From positions 1 to 21,599 of IMG/VR virus record IMGVR_UViG_3300042991_001421: a stretch of 21,599 bases of DNA; one strand, 5' to 3'. The DNA comes from a virus. The notes beneath the pieces are model-generated. The model had not been told where the DNA came from. It saw only the letters and a program-made list of their open reading frames with translations, and did not search any database. This document shows, one piece after another, positions 15,948 through 20,949 of this stretch; position 1 is the first letter of the stretch, and each line of letters begins with the position of its first letter. The position numbers and the translations under genes are program-made.

Positions 15948-16511
15948 TTATTTTTCGTCCAAAAAATAGATATTCAGAATCTCCAGGATGGAGGTCTTAT
16001 CCTCCCGAGAGAGGCCCAGGAAGGGCCGGGCGGGCGTCTTTACCTCGTGCGCCCCCACCTCGACCTGGCTGAAGGAGAATCGGCCCGACTTGCTCTTGCT
16101 GGCCTTCGCCTTGGAGGAGCGCTTCCCCTTGGCGGTCCAAAAAACCGTTTTACCATGAGCGGCAATGGGGAAGGTCCCCCCAAACTGGTGGCGGGCCGCA
16201 TACTTCCGGTCCGACCCAAACTCCAGCCCGCCCGCCGCGAGCTGGTAGGCCATGGTTTCGCGCAGGTAGCCGTAGAGCGTAAGGATCTTGTCAGCGTTGC
16301 GTTTTTTCCGGGCCTGGTACTCAGGGGAAAGTTCGTCCCACTTTGCCCCCTCCGGGGAGACCTGGCTCCTGAACCGCCTTTCCGTGGAGGGGAAAAGCAC
16401 CTCCTCGGCGATGTTGCGTAGCACAGGGTCCACATTTCCCATCTTGGCCTGGAGCTGCGCCAGCGCCGCGAGGACGCCAGGATCGTCAACTTCGATCGTC
16501 ACGCCGGACAT
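15948..16511 (-). CDS. Phage virion morphogenesis protein (Mu G-like)
   Basis: This 187-residue protein belongs to the Mu G / phage virion morphogenesis family. Visible features are the N-terminal MSGVTIEVDDPGVLAALAQL, a central Arg-rich segment with SPEYQARKKR, the RHQFGGTFPI turn and the C-terminal ARPFLGLS motif that marks the family. A Lys/Ser-rich insertion (GKRSSKAKASKSKSG) near residue 135 is unusual. The ATG at 16511 follows GAGGA at a normal distance. Family members act at head-tail joining or tail completion, but Mu G itself has been placed in head assembly, so the exact step is uncertain. It is separated from the F-like gene by a structured 102-base element. Confidence 0.85.
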   Translation of the reverse strand: MSGVTIEVDDPGVLAALAQLQAKMGNVDPVLRNIAEEVLFPSTERRFRSQVSPEGAKWDELSPEYQARKKRNADKILTLYGYLRETMAYQLAAGGLEFGSDRKYAARHQFGGTFPIAAHGKTVFWTAKGKRSSKAKASKSKSGRFSFSQVEVGAHEVKTPARPFLGLSREDKTSILEILNIYFLDEK

Positions 16512-16544
16512 TGCATTCCTCGGAAAAAGGCCCTATACTTCCCT

Positions 16545-16646
16545 GGTTGTGAGGCCCTGACAACTGGGAAATCGCCGGTCCAGTTGGGTAACCCGTCAAG
16601 GGCCTCCGTTACGGGGAAGGTGGCGTACCCCCTGGGCCTCACAACC
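16545..16646. other. 102-base structured element with perfect 13-bp inverted ends between F and G
   Basis: GGTTGTGAGGCCC at 16545-16557 is exactly repeated in inverse at 16634-16646. Inside lie CAACTGG (16561-16567) pairing with CCAGTTG (16580-16586), the near-palindrome GGGTAACCC (16586-16594), and a further arm GTCAAGGGCCTC (16595-16606) that pairs, with one bulge, with GAGGCCCTGAC (16551-16561). That last pairing uses bases of the outer stem, so the two folds exclude each other. The TGA stop of the F-like gene (16639-16641) lies in one arm. It may be a structured RNA or a small mobile palindrome. Confidence 0.75.
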
Positions 16647-17907
16647 CTCCCTCCAGGACGACAAAGTTCGGACCCCTCAAGTTGATTGTCCCAACCAGCC
16701 CCGCCGTTCGGAAGCTGTTCGTGGTGATCGTTCCGTTCGCCGTCTTCAGGGAGAAGTCCACCCGGACCACGATCTTCGCCGCAGTGTCCCCGCCCATGGC
16801 CGGGTCAAACACGTAGAGCAGCGCGGGGTCCTGGGTATCCCAGAGAACGGCTTTTGGGTACGCGAGTTTCTCGGGCAGTGCGAGCAGGTCTGCCGCGGAA
16901 ATTCCCCCGCGGTACCCGGTGCTTTTCCAGAGGGTGGTTTTTTTGTCGCGCAATGCGTGAAGGATGTCCGTATCCCTCGCCACGATTTCGTAGGTGGCGG
17001 GGTTGATACCGAGGTCATCCAGGCCCTTTAGCGTCTTTAGGCTGAGGCCGCCCACGGGAAACACATCGCCCCGTGTGATCTTGGTTTCGATGATCTCCTT
17101 GGCCCACTGGCCAAAGGCCTCGGTGAGCGCCCCCAGCGGCGTTTTAAGGTGGAAGATATCAGCCATGGCGCCCGAGGCGACATGGGGGGGCAGGCTGGAT
17201 ATCTGATCGAGGAAGTTCTCGATGGCGTGGCCGTTCGCCGTGGCCCCGGGTGCATACCCGAAGCCGGGGTCAATGCCCTCGGGAACCCAGACCGTCCTTG
17301 GGGTGGGGCCGGTCTTCCCCACGGTCCACTCTTTCATTTCGATGGGGGGCGCGGTGTCGGGCCCCGCCTTCCCCATCTTCTCCAGGCCCGCTTGGGAGAC
17401 GGCCGTCACGGAGCACATGCAGCCCCAGCCGTTGGGCGGGTAGTGGGTCTTCCACCAGGGGTCGTCCTTGCGGAGGACGAGGCCGTCCCATGCGAGGTGC
17501 TGGGGCCTGGGGCGGACCACCGCGTGCGAATGGCGGTAGATCCAGTAGGGGAGCCCCGATTCCTGAAGCTGCTTCCAGCGCCCCGCCTGGTAGGCCGTCC
17601 GCAGGTTCGTGCCATAGATGATCCTGCTTCGCCAATCCCGGCCGCCCTTGTAATCCCAGCCGTGCGTGGCGACGATGCGGTCAAAGTCCTTTCGGAAGGA
17701 CTCCAGCGTGACCCCCTGCCCGATGACCTTGAGGACCGCCGCGTGGAAATCCGCCACCAGCGCGGCCTTCGACGCCCCGGCCACGACGAATCCCCAATCG
17801 TGCTGCGACTGCCACAGGTCGGTCCAGGTCTCCGTGGGCAGGTTGAGCTTGCCCCGGAAGAAGTCAATCGCTTCCTGGAACGGCAGGCTGGTTGGGGTGA
17901 CGGGCAC
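16639..17907 (-). CDS. Mu F-like minor head protein with probable C-terminal nuclease (toxin) domain
   Basis: This 422-residue protein has the MuF signature near residues 120-170: RPRPQHLAWDGLV, then KDDPWWKTHYPPNGWGCMC. MuF proteins sit at the portal vertex and help DNA entry. The C-terminal ~135 residues (from about 285) go beyond the head domain and contain VARDTDILHALRDKKTT with a His near 316, and later KIVVRVDFSLK followed by ITTNSFRTAG. This layout resembles the barnase-EndoU-colicin-RelE-like (PBECR) nuclease domains fused to MuF in phage polyvalent proteins; the match is by character and not by alignment. The GTG start at 17907 has AGGAG 7 bases upstream, made of the portal stop and following bases. 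No immunity-like gene is seen next to it. Confidence 0.85.
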   Translation of the reverse strand: MPVTPTSLPFQEAIDFFRGKLNLPTETWTDLWQSQHDWGFVVAGASKAALVADFHAAVLKVIGQGVTLESFRKDFDRIVATHGWDYKGGRDWRSRIIYGTNLRTAYQAGRWKQLQESGLPYWIYRHSHAVVRPRPQHLAWDGLVLRKDDPWWKTHYPPNGWGCMCSVTAVSQAGLEKMGKAGPDTAPPIEMKEWTVGKTGPTPRTVWVPEGIDPGFGYAPGATANGHAIENFLDQISSLPPHVASGAMADIFHLKTPLGALTEAFGQWAKEIIETKITRGDVFPVGGLSLKTLKGLDDLGINPATYEIVARDTDILHALRDKKTTLWKSTGYRGGISAADLLALPEKLAYPKAVLWDTQDPALLYVFDPAMGGDTAAKIVVRVDFSLKTANGTITTNSFRTAGLVGTINLRGPNFVVLEGGL

Positions 17908-17916
17908 GCGGCACTC

Positions 17917-19509
17917 CTACCGGAGTTCCTGCATCACGTCCCACCGCCCCGCCAGCTCGGCGGCGAGGAGGGCCTGTTCCATGATCTCGGTGAACCTCCC
18001 GGCGGGCATGTCTGGATAGGCTTCGAAGAGGGAGTCCCTCAACCCTTCGAGGCTGGTGGCCTCGCCCACGATCTTCCGGATGGGTTCCAGGAGGGCGGCC
18101 ACCGCGGGGCCCGCCTCGCGGGAGAGACGGTCTGCGAGGATGGATGGGGTATCGGGTGGGACAGGCGTTCCCGCCTGTCCAGTCTCGCCTTCGGCGAGGG
18201 CCACCGCCTGGTCCTTGTCTTTCGTGGCGCGGGCGCCCCCGCCCGCGAGGGGCCAATCTCCCCCTGCCCCCTCTTTTCCTAAGAGGGGGTTCTGTGCCCC
18301 CGCGGGCGAGGGCGCCCGCGCCACATCCAAGGGCGCCCGCGCCACGCCGGTATCGGTTCTCTCCCCGCCGTAGGTGTCTTCGATGTATTTCATGGTGGGC
18401 CGGAACCCCATCTCGTTCAGGGTCTTGTCCCGCTCGGCCACCTGGTTCAGGTCCTCCGGCTCCTCGATGCGGCGCCAGACCTTCGGGACCTTCGCCCCCG
18501 GGAAGTTCCACTCCGTGAGCCAGCGGGCGGGCCCCATGTTGAAGCTCTGGCACAGCAGGTCCGCGTCGGCCTTGATGAGGTCCTGCCTCACGTCCATGTG
18601 GGTCTGGGACTGGGACGAGCCCAGCCCCGTGTTCTTGGCGTCGGTGGTGAGGGTCTGGCCCAGGGTGACCTTGGTGATCGCGGCGTCCATGCGGTCGTAG
18701 AAGAGGCTGAAATCCGCCCCTGCCGCCCGCTTGGCCTCGATGAGTTCGATGGTCATCCCATCGGGGATGATCACCCCGGCGTCCGTCTGGATGGCCGCGA
18801 GGGCCGACAGGAGCTTCGTCTTCTCTTCGGCTGTGGCCCCCCGCGGGTATTTCCCCGAGGCCGTGGGCATGCCGTACTTGTCCAGGAAAATAGCCCAGAA
18901 CTTCAGGCCGTTGCGCTTGAAAAACACGGGCCAGTAGAGCCAGTGGCCCAGCCCCAGTCCGTAAGGCTCGTCGTCGTTGTCCGCCCCGCACGAGTAGGCC
19001 CAGAACTTCCGGTCCGGCAGCAATTCCCCCTGGGGGTTCGCGCTCGTCTTCAGGCGGAGGCGGTAGGCCCCGTCGAAGGCGAAGCGCCGCCGGTTGCGCA
19101 CGAGGGCCTTGTCGAGAGTGACCTGGGCGCCGTCCCGCCCCCACATGCACTCGGCCACGCTGTAGCCGTAGTAGACCCCGAAGTGCATCTTGTCCGTGGT
19201 GTCATCCCAGTCCAGCGCCTTCAGGTTGGCCTTCAGCGCCTCGGCCGCCTTCTTGTCCTGGCGCGAGTCGCCCCCGGCCTCCACCTCCCACTCGGCCTTG
19301 ACCACCGCCAGGCGGCGCTGCTGGAGCGTGGCGTGAACCTGGTCGTCCCTCAGCAGCTCCTCGTAGAGCTTCAGGTCGTACCCGCCCCGCGTCTGGAGGA
19401 CCGTGTCCGCCGGCATGAGGAGCTGGAGGGGGTCCACGAAGCCCCGGGTGATGTCCCGCCCGTCGCGCGTGGTGGCGATCTCGTTCATGTCTGGGGGTTT
19501 GCCCGGCAT
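17917..19509 (-). CDS. Portal protein, DUF935 (Mu gp29-like)
   Basis: This 530-residue protein is the dodecameric portal through which DNA enters. The DUF935 signature is clear: EELLRDDQVHATLQQRR near residue 50, VYYGYSVAECMW near 110, then FLDKYGMPTASGKYP near 210 and TLGQTLTTDAKNTGLGSSQ near 285. The start at the ATG at 19509 has GAGGT 5 bases upstream. Residues about 388-451 do not look like portal sequence: they are encoded by palindromic repeats that read through in frame (GVARAPLDVARAPSPAGAQ, then NPLLGKEGAGG, later GQAGTPVPPDTP). The normal family-like helical C-terminus resumes after them. The gene lies between the large terminase and the F-like gene as in Mu. Confidence 0.92.
   Translation of the reverse strand: MPGKPPDMNEIATTRDGRDITRGFVDPLQLLMPADTVLQTRGGYDLKLYEELLRDDQVHATLQQRRLAVVKAEWEVEAGGDSRQDKKAAEALKANLKALDWDDTTDKMHFGVYYGYSVAECMWGRDGAQVTLDKALVRNRRRFAFDGAYRLRLKTSANPQGELLPDRKFWAYSCGADNDDEPYGLGLGHWLYWPVFFKRNGLKFWAIFLDKYGMPTASGKYPRGATAEEKTKLLSALAAIQTDAGVIIPDGMTIELIEAKRAAGADFSLFYDRMDAAITKVTLGQTLTTDAKNTGLGSSQSQTHMDVRQDLIKADADLLCQSFNMGPARWLTEWNFPGAKVPKVWRRIEEPEDLNQVAERDKTLNEMGFRPTMKYIEDTYGGERTDTGVARAPLDVARAPSPAGAQNPLLGKEGAGGDWPLAGGGARATKDKDQAVALAEGETGQAGTPVPPDTPSILADRLSREAGPAVAALLEPIRKIVGEATSLEGLRDSLFEAYPDMPAGRFTEIMEQALLAAELAGRWDVMQELR
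18157..18345. repeat. Palindromic repeat cluster inside the portal gene
   Basis: The parts are: hairpin GGACAGGCG/CGCCTGTCC (18159-18167 with 18172-18180, 4-base loop); CTCGCC/GGCGAG (18184-18198); a large hairpin with a perfect 14-bp outer stem (GTGGCGCGGGCGCC at 18224-18237 with 18311-18324), a 7-bp inner stem (18241-18247 with 18301-18307), and a 9-bp hairpin CCCCCTCTT/AAGAGGGGG at its tip (18267-18275 with 18281-18289). A third copy of the arm, GGGCGCCCGCGCCAC, follows at 18331-18345 as a direct repeat of 18310-18324. The portal frame remains open through all of it. Such elements are normally intergenic. Confidence 0.85.
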
Positions 19510-19599: not shown

Positions 19600-20949
19600 T
19601 TAGAATCCCGTCATATCCGCGCCGCCGCCCACCGTGCCGAAGCCCCGGTCCTCGTTCACCCGAAGTTCCGAGGCGCCTTCGCGCAGGCCGAGCGATTGGA
19701 AGTCGATGGGGGCCGAGGGCGTGGCCGCCGCGCTGGTGGCCAGGAAGCACGCCCAGGCGCGGTCCGCGTGGCCCGCCGAATCGGAATCCGCCAGGAACCG
19801 GGGCGTTCCCGTCGGGCCCACGACCTTCTGGAGCTTGTGCAGGTCCGCCCGAAGGTCCGCGCTCCCCTCGGGGATCCGGATCTTCCGGTCTTCGAAGGTT
19901 TCCTTGCCCACGGTCGCCAGCGCGAGTTTGTTGGGGCCGGTGAACAGGACCCCCTCCACGCGCATCTCGCCGTGGCGGCGCTTGGCGTCCTCCACGGGCT
20001 TTTCGCCCATGCCCGTCTGGTCCATGCAGCACCGGACCACCTTGTATTTTCGAAACACCTGGTCCAAGAGGGCATCCTGTTCCGAAAAGGGCACCCCCCG
20101 CCGGGCGATGATCTCCCTCGTCCATGCCACGTCCCCGACGGCCTCCAGGACCCAGATCACGAACAGGTCACCCCGCGCGGCGATGTCCACGCCCACGAAA
20201 CACGGCCCCCCCGCGTACGTCTCGGGGAGCCCCGCATCCTTGTCCTCGCAGGCGTAGATGAGTTCGTACGGCAGCCAGGCGCTCGCTTCGTCCACCCATT
20301 GCAGCTCGAACTCCTGGCGCCACAGCTCGTCGTCGGCCATGCCCTCTTTGAGTTCCTGCACATTCCTGGGCAGCCCGTCGGCCACGGCCTGGTGGATGTC
20401 CACCACATGGCGGCTCCAGCGCGCGCCCTGCGCCGTCATCAGCTCATAGAACTTGTTGCCCTTCCCCTTCGGTGTGGAGGTGATCCGTATCCGCAGGCCG
20501 GAACGGGACGCCACCGGGAACAGCGCCCCCCAGATGGCTCGGGCATCCCGGTGGATGGCGAACTCATCGAGGAAGACATTCCGGCTATAGCCCCTCGCCG
20601 TGTCCGCATTCGCTGGGATCGCGGTGATGAGGCTGCCCCCGGGCAGGACCACCTCTTGCGAGGTGATCCGGGCGTCGAACGGCGCCTCGAACGCCTCGAA
20701 CCCCGCCTGCATGGCCTTCAGGTGGAGGTGGACCCCTTCTCGCATGGCCTCCTTGGCCTGGCGGTCCCCGCGCGAGAGGATGACCCAGTTGGACCGGCGG
20801 TTTTCCGATTCCGCCTTCAGGACATCGAGGACGATCTCGAGGGTGGTCGTGAACGTCTTTCCCGTCTGCCTCGCGAACATCCCGATCTTCCACCGGGAGG
20901 CGTCCTCAAGCCATCTCTTTTGGTAGGGGTAGAGTTCCAGCGCCGGCAT
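19600..20949 (-). CDS. Large terminase subunit (Mu gp28-like)
   Basis: This 449-residue protein is the ATP-driven packaging motor with a nuclease domain. The ATPase half has Walker A ARQTGKT (residues 26-32), Walker B VFLDEF (125-130) and the coupling segment STPKGKGNKF (158-167). The nuclease half has FVGVDIAARGD with Asp255, a later CCMDQTGMGEKP segment, and DSDSAGHADRAWA near the C-terminus, giving plausible acidic metal ligands. The frame is open further upstream, but that part is the other reading of the small terminase gene; the ATG at 20949 overlaps the small terminase stop by one base (TAATG). In transposable phages, this enzyme packages headful lengths starting in the phage left end and running into host DNA. 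Confidence 0.95.
   Translation of the reverse strand: MPALELYPYQKRWLEDASRWKIGMFARQTGKTFTTTLEIVLDVLKAESENRRSNWVILSRGDRQAKEAMREGVHLHLKAMQAGFEAFEAPFDARITSQEVVLPGGSLITAIPANADTARGYSRNVFLDEFAIHRDARAIWGALFPVASRSGLRIRITSTPKGKGNKFYELMTAQGARWSRHVVDIHQAVADGLPRNVQELKEGMADDELWRQEFELQWVDEASAWLPYELIYACEDKDAGLPETYAGGPCFVGVDIAARGDLFVIWVLEAVGDVAWTREIIARRGVPFSEQDALLDQVFRKYKVVRCCMDQTGMGEKPVEDAKRRHGEMRVEGVLFTGPNKLALATVGKETFEDRKIRIPEGSADLRADLHKLQKVVGPTGTPRFLADSDSAGHADRAWACFLATSAAATPSAPIDFQSLGLREGASELRVNEDRGFGTVGGGADMTGF

Follow-up and report, generated by a model that had tools for sequence, protein, structure and literature searches.

An antisense, tRNA-like RNA gene behind the F gene of Mu-like phages and its possible role as immunity to a predicted head-borne ribonuclease

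Between the late genes F and G in IMG/VR virus record IMGVR_UViG_3300042991_001421 (positions 1 to 21,599; this whole stretch of 21,599 nucleotides is called the window below) lies an element of 102 nucleotides, 16545-16646, which raises the question of what a palindromic structure is doing at the end of a phage head gene. A preliminary description had proposed that it was either a translational or transcriptional switch in the late mRNA or a small mobile element with terminal repeats. Comparative sequence analysis instead gives strong support to a structured RNA gene that is antisense to the late operon and has promoter-like sites of its own. On balance we think that the RNA would confer immunity against the C-terminal domain of F as its antitoxin partner, acting as a tRNA-mimic antidote to what is predicted to be a virion-delivered ribonuclease (RNase).

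The 13-nucleotide inverted ends of the element (16545-16557 and 16634-16646) are exact, as had been noticed, and the element folds better than its dinucleotide shuffles on the plus strand (z = -2.5, 2/200 shuffles as good) and on the minus strand (z = -3.45, 0/200 as good). The fold has the following parts.

16545-16646, plus strand: structured RNA gene (subtype 1) in antisense to the late operon; P1 closes the whole four-arm fold.
16545-16557, plus strand: 5' arm of P1, the acceptor-like outer stem, GGTTGTGAGGCCC.
16634-16646, plus strand: 3' arm of P1, GGGCCTCACAACC, with the F stop codon inside it in antisense.
16561-16586, plus strand: P4, a D-arm-like hairpin, CAACTGG-GAAATCGCCGGT-CCAGTTG, with a near-invariant loop.
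16587-16612, plus strand: P3, a variable middle arm that stands where a tRNA has its anticodon arm; in many homologues a GNRA tetraloop caps it.
16613-16631, plus strand: P2, a hairpin in the T-arm position, GGGG-AAGGTGGCGTA-CCCC, with 100% of cells paired.
16573-16576, plus strand: kissing-loop strand CGCC in the P4 loop, partner of 16622-16625.
16622-16625, plus strand: kissing-loop strand GGCG in the P2 loop, partner of 16573-16576.

The decisive evidence that the element is more than chance is covariation among 21 distinct homologues of subtype 1. Their alignment has 31 base pairs with 93.3% of cells paired and with changes on both sides in 21 of the 31; its covariation score was 0.527, against 0.190 ± 0.015 for shuffled controls and at most 0.142 for slid structures, the alignment having been fitted to a covariance model, which favors the structure. 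The closed four-arm fold is kept in all 21 members. In P1, compensatory changes occur in 12/12 aligned pairs (94.3% of cells paired), so the want of stem conservation that the preliminary description had thought would tell against the element was not found. Both sides change in three of the four modeled pairs of P3. The P4 and P2 loops are joined by a kissing helix that lies outside the model. Its fourth pair is CG in 14 members, GC in two, and AU in one, with four members unpaired at this position; the strands of the helix read CGCA/TGCG at locus L133 and CGCG/CGCG at L138 and L142. Covariation was likewise above controls, P1 included, in the related subtypes 2a and 2b described below.

Strand comparisons place the structure on the strand antisense to F. 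That strand has 44 G-U cells in the subtype-1 alignment versus 5 A-C cells, and it folds better in most of the divergent members, for example at -62.4 versus -40.6 kcal/mol in Pseudomonas phage B3. The alternative stem that had been held to compete with the outer one (16551-16561 with 16595-16606) can indeed be drawn, but it is not conserved: pairing of the 5' outer arm with the middle arm extends at best over 8 bp in the window and 10 bp in the B3 group but only 4-7 bp in the other 17 members. With the structure on the strand opposite to the F and G mRNA, and with no conservation of the competing fold, a late-mRNA switch can be rejected.

Sigma-70-like promoter sites lie just before P1, on the same strand as the RNA. 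In the window these are as follows.

16511-16516, plus strand: predicted -35 box TTGCAT, followed by a 17-nucleotide spacer.
16534-16539, plus strand: predicted -10 box TATACT, which would place the start at about 16545, the first paired base.

The mean promoter score was 8.17 for the 21 subtype-1 members against 5.28 ± 0.26 for shuffled flanks (z about 11) and 7.60 for 39 subtype-2 members against 6.24 ± 0.20 (z about 7). The TTGCAT-17-TATACT site of the window was not flagged by a stricter consensus promoter scan.

Homologues of the element proved to be widespread at one site. A sensitive DNA search returned a single similar locus, behind an F-like gene on a Rhizobium lusitanum plasmid; inspection of phage B3 revealed the same element behind its F gene, and two pattern scans of IMG/VR yielded about 20 further contigs. 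Wherever the gene upstream could be read in these contigs, it was F-like and ended directly at the element, and the gene that follows is G in B3-like phages and a protease gene in others. A covariance model, R1, of the window element and four homologues scores the window element at 102 bits, and relatives of B3 outside the building set of the five-member model score 54-67 bits. In total the family has more than 50 distinct copies, spread over diverse phages and prophages and nearly always placed directly behind a Mu F-like gene. Covariation is confined to the site behind F, which the preliminary description had named as support for an RNA. The Rfam search that had been suggested gave no family: in Rfam 15, no covariance model matched subtype 1 at E ≤ 1, and the only match for subtype 2 was tRNA-Sec, to one copy, at 25.8 bits and E = 0.21, under the gathering score. 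The family, which includes the element of B3, a phage whose sequence has been available for many years, is apparently undescribed in Mu-like phages.

Several individual records deserve mention. In B3 (L011, 3740-3838) the hypothetical open reading frame ORF34 (AAQ13952.1) coincides in large part with the RNA element, on the opposite strand, and may be no gene. Strong RNA copies stand at 20728-20836 and 63146-63249 of an 84-kb virus record (G004), perhaps two adjoining prophages. A 28-nucleotide BLAST match in Bordetella phage BPP-1 sits within a coding gene and is a chance match, and the pattern matches L024, L025, L027-L029, L033, L042, L134-L136, L141, L143, and L144 were also judged to be chance.

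The resemblance to tRNA emerged from F relatives fetched by protein, two of which have a different antisense cloverleaf behind F, for example in Pasteurella phage AFS-2018a. The pattern of this subtype 2, a D-arm-like hairpin, a variable arm, and a T-arm of the form CCKG-TTCGAAT-CMGG, was found in 72 IMG/VR stretches, 39 of them distinct. When 399 Pseudomonadota genomes were searched, the subtype-2 model gave one strong match (55.9 bits), behind an F gene with the intact motif described below; of the next 15 weaker matches examined, 13 were tRNA genes as judged by ARAGORN. Because the model turns next to tRNA genes, the RNA is, by its sequence and predicted fold, tRNA-like. It is not itself a tRNA; ARAGORN calls none of the family elements a tRNA, and no anticodon loop is evident in a middle arm that is often GNRA-capped. 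Model R3, for subtype 2a, had no matches in the 399 genomes, and one 2a element had no match in E. coli genomes. The subtype-1 covariance model does not detect subtype 2, and we infer the homology of the two subtypes from architecture, strand, and position. Elsewhere on one subtype-2 contig (L194, 4397-4489, minus strand), ARAGORN calls a tRNA-Gly(ACC) after a TATAAT box, possibly another tRNA-like element.

The protein on which the proposed role depends is encoded by the gene that ends in P1. The late operon runs on the minus strand in the order large terminase-like open reading frame, portal, F, G, protease-like open reading frame, with these features around the element.

16639-17907, minus strand: F gene, Mu F-like minor head protein; Pfam Phage_Mu_F (PF04233), E = 1.2e-12.
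16639-16641, minus strand: F stop codon TGA, within outer stem P1.
16642-17136, minus strand: F C-terminal domain, a predicted RNase of MuF-C/PBECR type.
16957-16959, 16939-16941, 16717-16719, and 16705-16707, minus strand: F-domain codons for His, Lys, Asn, and Thr, respectively.
15948-16511, minus strand: G gene, Phage_tail_S/virion morphogenesis protein; Pfam PF05069, E = 7e-29.
17917-19509: portal gene, immediately upstream of F, identified by a Pfam match.

These coordinates agree with the earlier placing of the F stop codon within one arm and of G beyond the other. With its PF04233 domain and its place directly behind the portal gene, F matches the MuF side of the polymorphic toxins. Jamet et al. 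(2017, PMC5576092) described MuF proteins as polymorphic toxins, predicted to be delivered from the head, whose immunity genes lie downstream. According to Iyer et al. (2017, PMC5512222), MuF-C is a predicted RNase of the PBECR fold, inactive in Mu and probably active in some orthologues, with an active site made of a His in a helix and a C-terminal Thr/Ser. The F domains of 13 RNA-bearing homologues keep H60, K66, D100, K121, and N140 invariant. In an AlphaFold2 model of the F C-terminal domain (predicted local distance difference test score 90.9), H60 falls within helix 55-67 and the Thr of NSFRT within a long late strand, as the PBECR/MuF-C description asks. The C-terminal domains of relatives match MuF_C, PBECR2, and PBECR3 weakly, below the curated cut-off.

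The RNA is linked to these residues. The 76 complete F relatives compared were picked on their protein alone; in this set, RNA of subtype 1 or 2 accompanied 6 of the 7 with the motif HxxRxxK...N..[TS] and none of the 69 that lacked it. Ignoring kinship, the hypergeometric p value is about 3e-8 with L074 counted from the covariance search and 1.1e-6 without that count. Ps60, CF53b, JBD67, phiSHP3, Bhz63, and Fc02 have neither motif nor RNA, and in phage Mu the motif is deleted, F and G overlap, and the RNA is absent. Since the RNA is found only where the key residues of the predicted toxin are kept, it is probably an antidote.

A mechanism can be proposed on this basis. An RNA of about 100 nucleotides would be made from the plus strand, from its own sigma-70-like promoter and antisense to the late operon. 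It would fold into a tRNA-like body with an outer stem, D-arm-like and T-arm-position hairpins joined by their kissing loops, and a middle arm. The predicted C-terminal RNase of F would, as the literature predicts, travel inside the phage head and enter the cell along with the DNA, and the RNA would bind this domain, mimicking tRNA to serve as a decoy or pseudo-substrate. Being made independently of the late promoter, it could be present in lysogens as well as in phage-producing cells. Transcription of the RNA, the RNase activity of the domain, tRNA as its target, and neutralization by binding are all what we infer from sequence comparison.

Several observations weigh against this proposal. 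The F C-terminal domain of the window has no Pfam match even at E = 10, and a fold search of the Protein Data Bank gave nothing convincing (best E = 0.1), so its PBECR nature rests on the weak matches of relatives, the residue pattern, and the literature. The p values for the motif are overstated because the sequences are related. L071 has a motif-positive F without RNA of subtype 1 or 2, and the motif-negative L080 and L101 seem to carry an uncatalogued element. A search for a terminator at the RNA 3' end found none. Finally, the adjacency of RNA and toxin domain, and hence their shared recombination, could alone align their histories.

Just behind F, L071, L080, and L101 have other long-stemmed antisense folds, that of L101 with a perfect TATAAT box; these are probably further RNA subtypes missed by the models, and the F motifs at these loci are variants (HLRRPAK or K..RH..AG.[AG]L). 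At L157, L158, L159, L175, and L194, subtype-2 RNAs follow F proteins with a different C-terminal domain, and in L158 and L175 the F motif is K..RH..AGNAL.

RNA and toxin domain also appear to move together. RNA subtype follows the tree of the toxin domain better than that of the F N-terminus, its label changing 4 times on the former (minimum 2) and 6 times on the latter; a G-protein tree, small and poorly resolved, also mixes the subtypes. In the window, the F N-terminus groups with subtype-2b phages and the C-terminal domain with subtype-1 phages, and the RNA is of subtype 1. Single copies are the rule, with an exception in tandem duplicates of the unit formed by the F end and its RNA: a prophage remnant (L047, 5796-7044, genome G018) has two F C-terminal fragments in succession, with an antisense RNA behind each one, and then a protease fragment. 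Two contigs carry paired subtype-2 RNAs, and others have an extra T-arm upstream; in several of L157, L158, L159, L175, and L194, a second T-arm stands directly upstream, giving tandem tRNA-like RNAs. An intact subtype-2 RNA was also found on a conjugative plasmid of Methylotuvimicrobium alcaliphilum (NC_016108.1, about 85275-85350; L238, 2490-2575), where it has a TATACT -10-like box and is flanked by a hypothetical gene on one side and a UvrD-like helicase gene on the other, with no F-like gene nearby. It is possibly a stand-alone immunity. We suggest, tentatively, a new kind of immunity, in which head-borne RNase toxins are matched by an antisense, anticodon-less tRNA mimic that is exchanged with them as a cassette and is carried toxin-free on a conjugative plasmid.

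Other roles for the RNA fit part of this evidence. It could be a structural or cargo partner of F, bound by the C-terminal domain and packaged or injected in the manner of the phi29 packaging RNA. The RNA adjoins the portal and F genes, its complementary loops would allow kissing between molecules, and Iyer et al. (PMC5512222) suggest RNA binding by inactive PBECR domains. However, Ps60, JBD67, phiSHP3, and Fc02, which have closely related heads but a degenerate domain, do without the RNA, so it is not a general part of packaging; the RNA instead goes with the catalytic residues, and no F lies near the plasmid copy. We regard this role as unlikely.

Still less likely is that the RNA regulates the late operon, acting by transcriptional interference or as an antisense RNA that silences F and G in lysogens. 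In favor of this, the RNA is antisense, overlapping the end of F and nearing the start of G, and has promoter-like sites. Nevertheless, conservation falls on the fold and the loop sequences rather than on complementarity to a fixed mRNA segment, the outer stem being free in sequence, and the downstream gene varies between G and a protease. Here too, presence follows the catalytic residues of F, and the plasmid copy lacks a target operon nearby.

A tRNA-like shape beside a predicted RNase would also suit an RNA that serves the F nuclease as a substrate or a sensor, either by being cleaved or by activating it, instead of an inhibitor. Toxins of type III systems also process their own antitoxin RNA, which offers a parallel. 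Protection better explains why the RNA is retained with active domains and lost upon domain decay, and we place a substrate or sensor below the antisense regulator in likelihood. A mobile palindrome inserted at the F-G junction, akin to a miniature inverted-repeat transposable element or a repetitive extragenic palindrome, is hardly credible: it would account for the terminal inverted repeats and for presence or absence among related B3-like phages, but nearly every phage record has one copy, with the gene end and the orientation constant, the "terminal repeat" varies among members while its pairing is kept, and the phage records searched held no dispersed multiple copies with conserved terminal repeats.

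An antidote role for the RNA would give a partner to the MuF-C/PBECR domains and would address the questions of target and self-protection that have stood since these domains were predicted in 2017. If true, a tRNA-shaped antidote would suggest that the injected RNases attack tRNA or tRNA-like molecules, and the reach of RNA antitoxins would grow beyond type III systems to polymorphic toxins delivered by the virion.

Among known elements, the structured RNA downstream of Mu gpT, which the preliminary description had set apart, likewise lies among Mu-like head genes but at a different junction, and no Rfam family matches the present element. In subtype 2 the RNA shares with tRNA (RF00005/RF01852) the cloverleaf order and the TTCGAAT T-loop; unlike tRNA, the family is never called by ARAGORN, and its middle arm is often GNRA-capped with no evident anticodon loop. 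The F C-terminal domain resembles MuF-C/PBECR as set out in PMC5512222, with a helix His, a C-terminal Thr/Ser, and an inactive copy in Mu; no description of an RNA partner for these domains was found in the open-access literature, the accessible part of PMC5512222 included. In type III systems the antitoxins form an H-type pseudoknot and are encoded upstream of the toxin, as tandem repeats on its own strand. Like ToxIN and its relatives, the present system would, by analogy, pair an RNA with an endoribonuclease, and some loci have tandem RNA copies; unlike them, its RNA is mostly single copy, antisense, downstream, and tRNA-like, and the toxin would be a domain of a virion protein. There is also a likeness to the MuF polymorphic toxins (PMC5576092), which have a MuF N-terminus, a variable C-terminal effector, and a small element directly behind, are restricted to temperate phages, and are predicted to be delivered by the head. 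Their partner has been assumed to be a small protein-coding frame, whereas here it would be a structured RNA on the opposite strand with promoter-like sites of its own.
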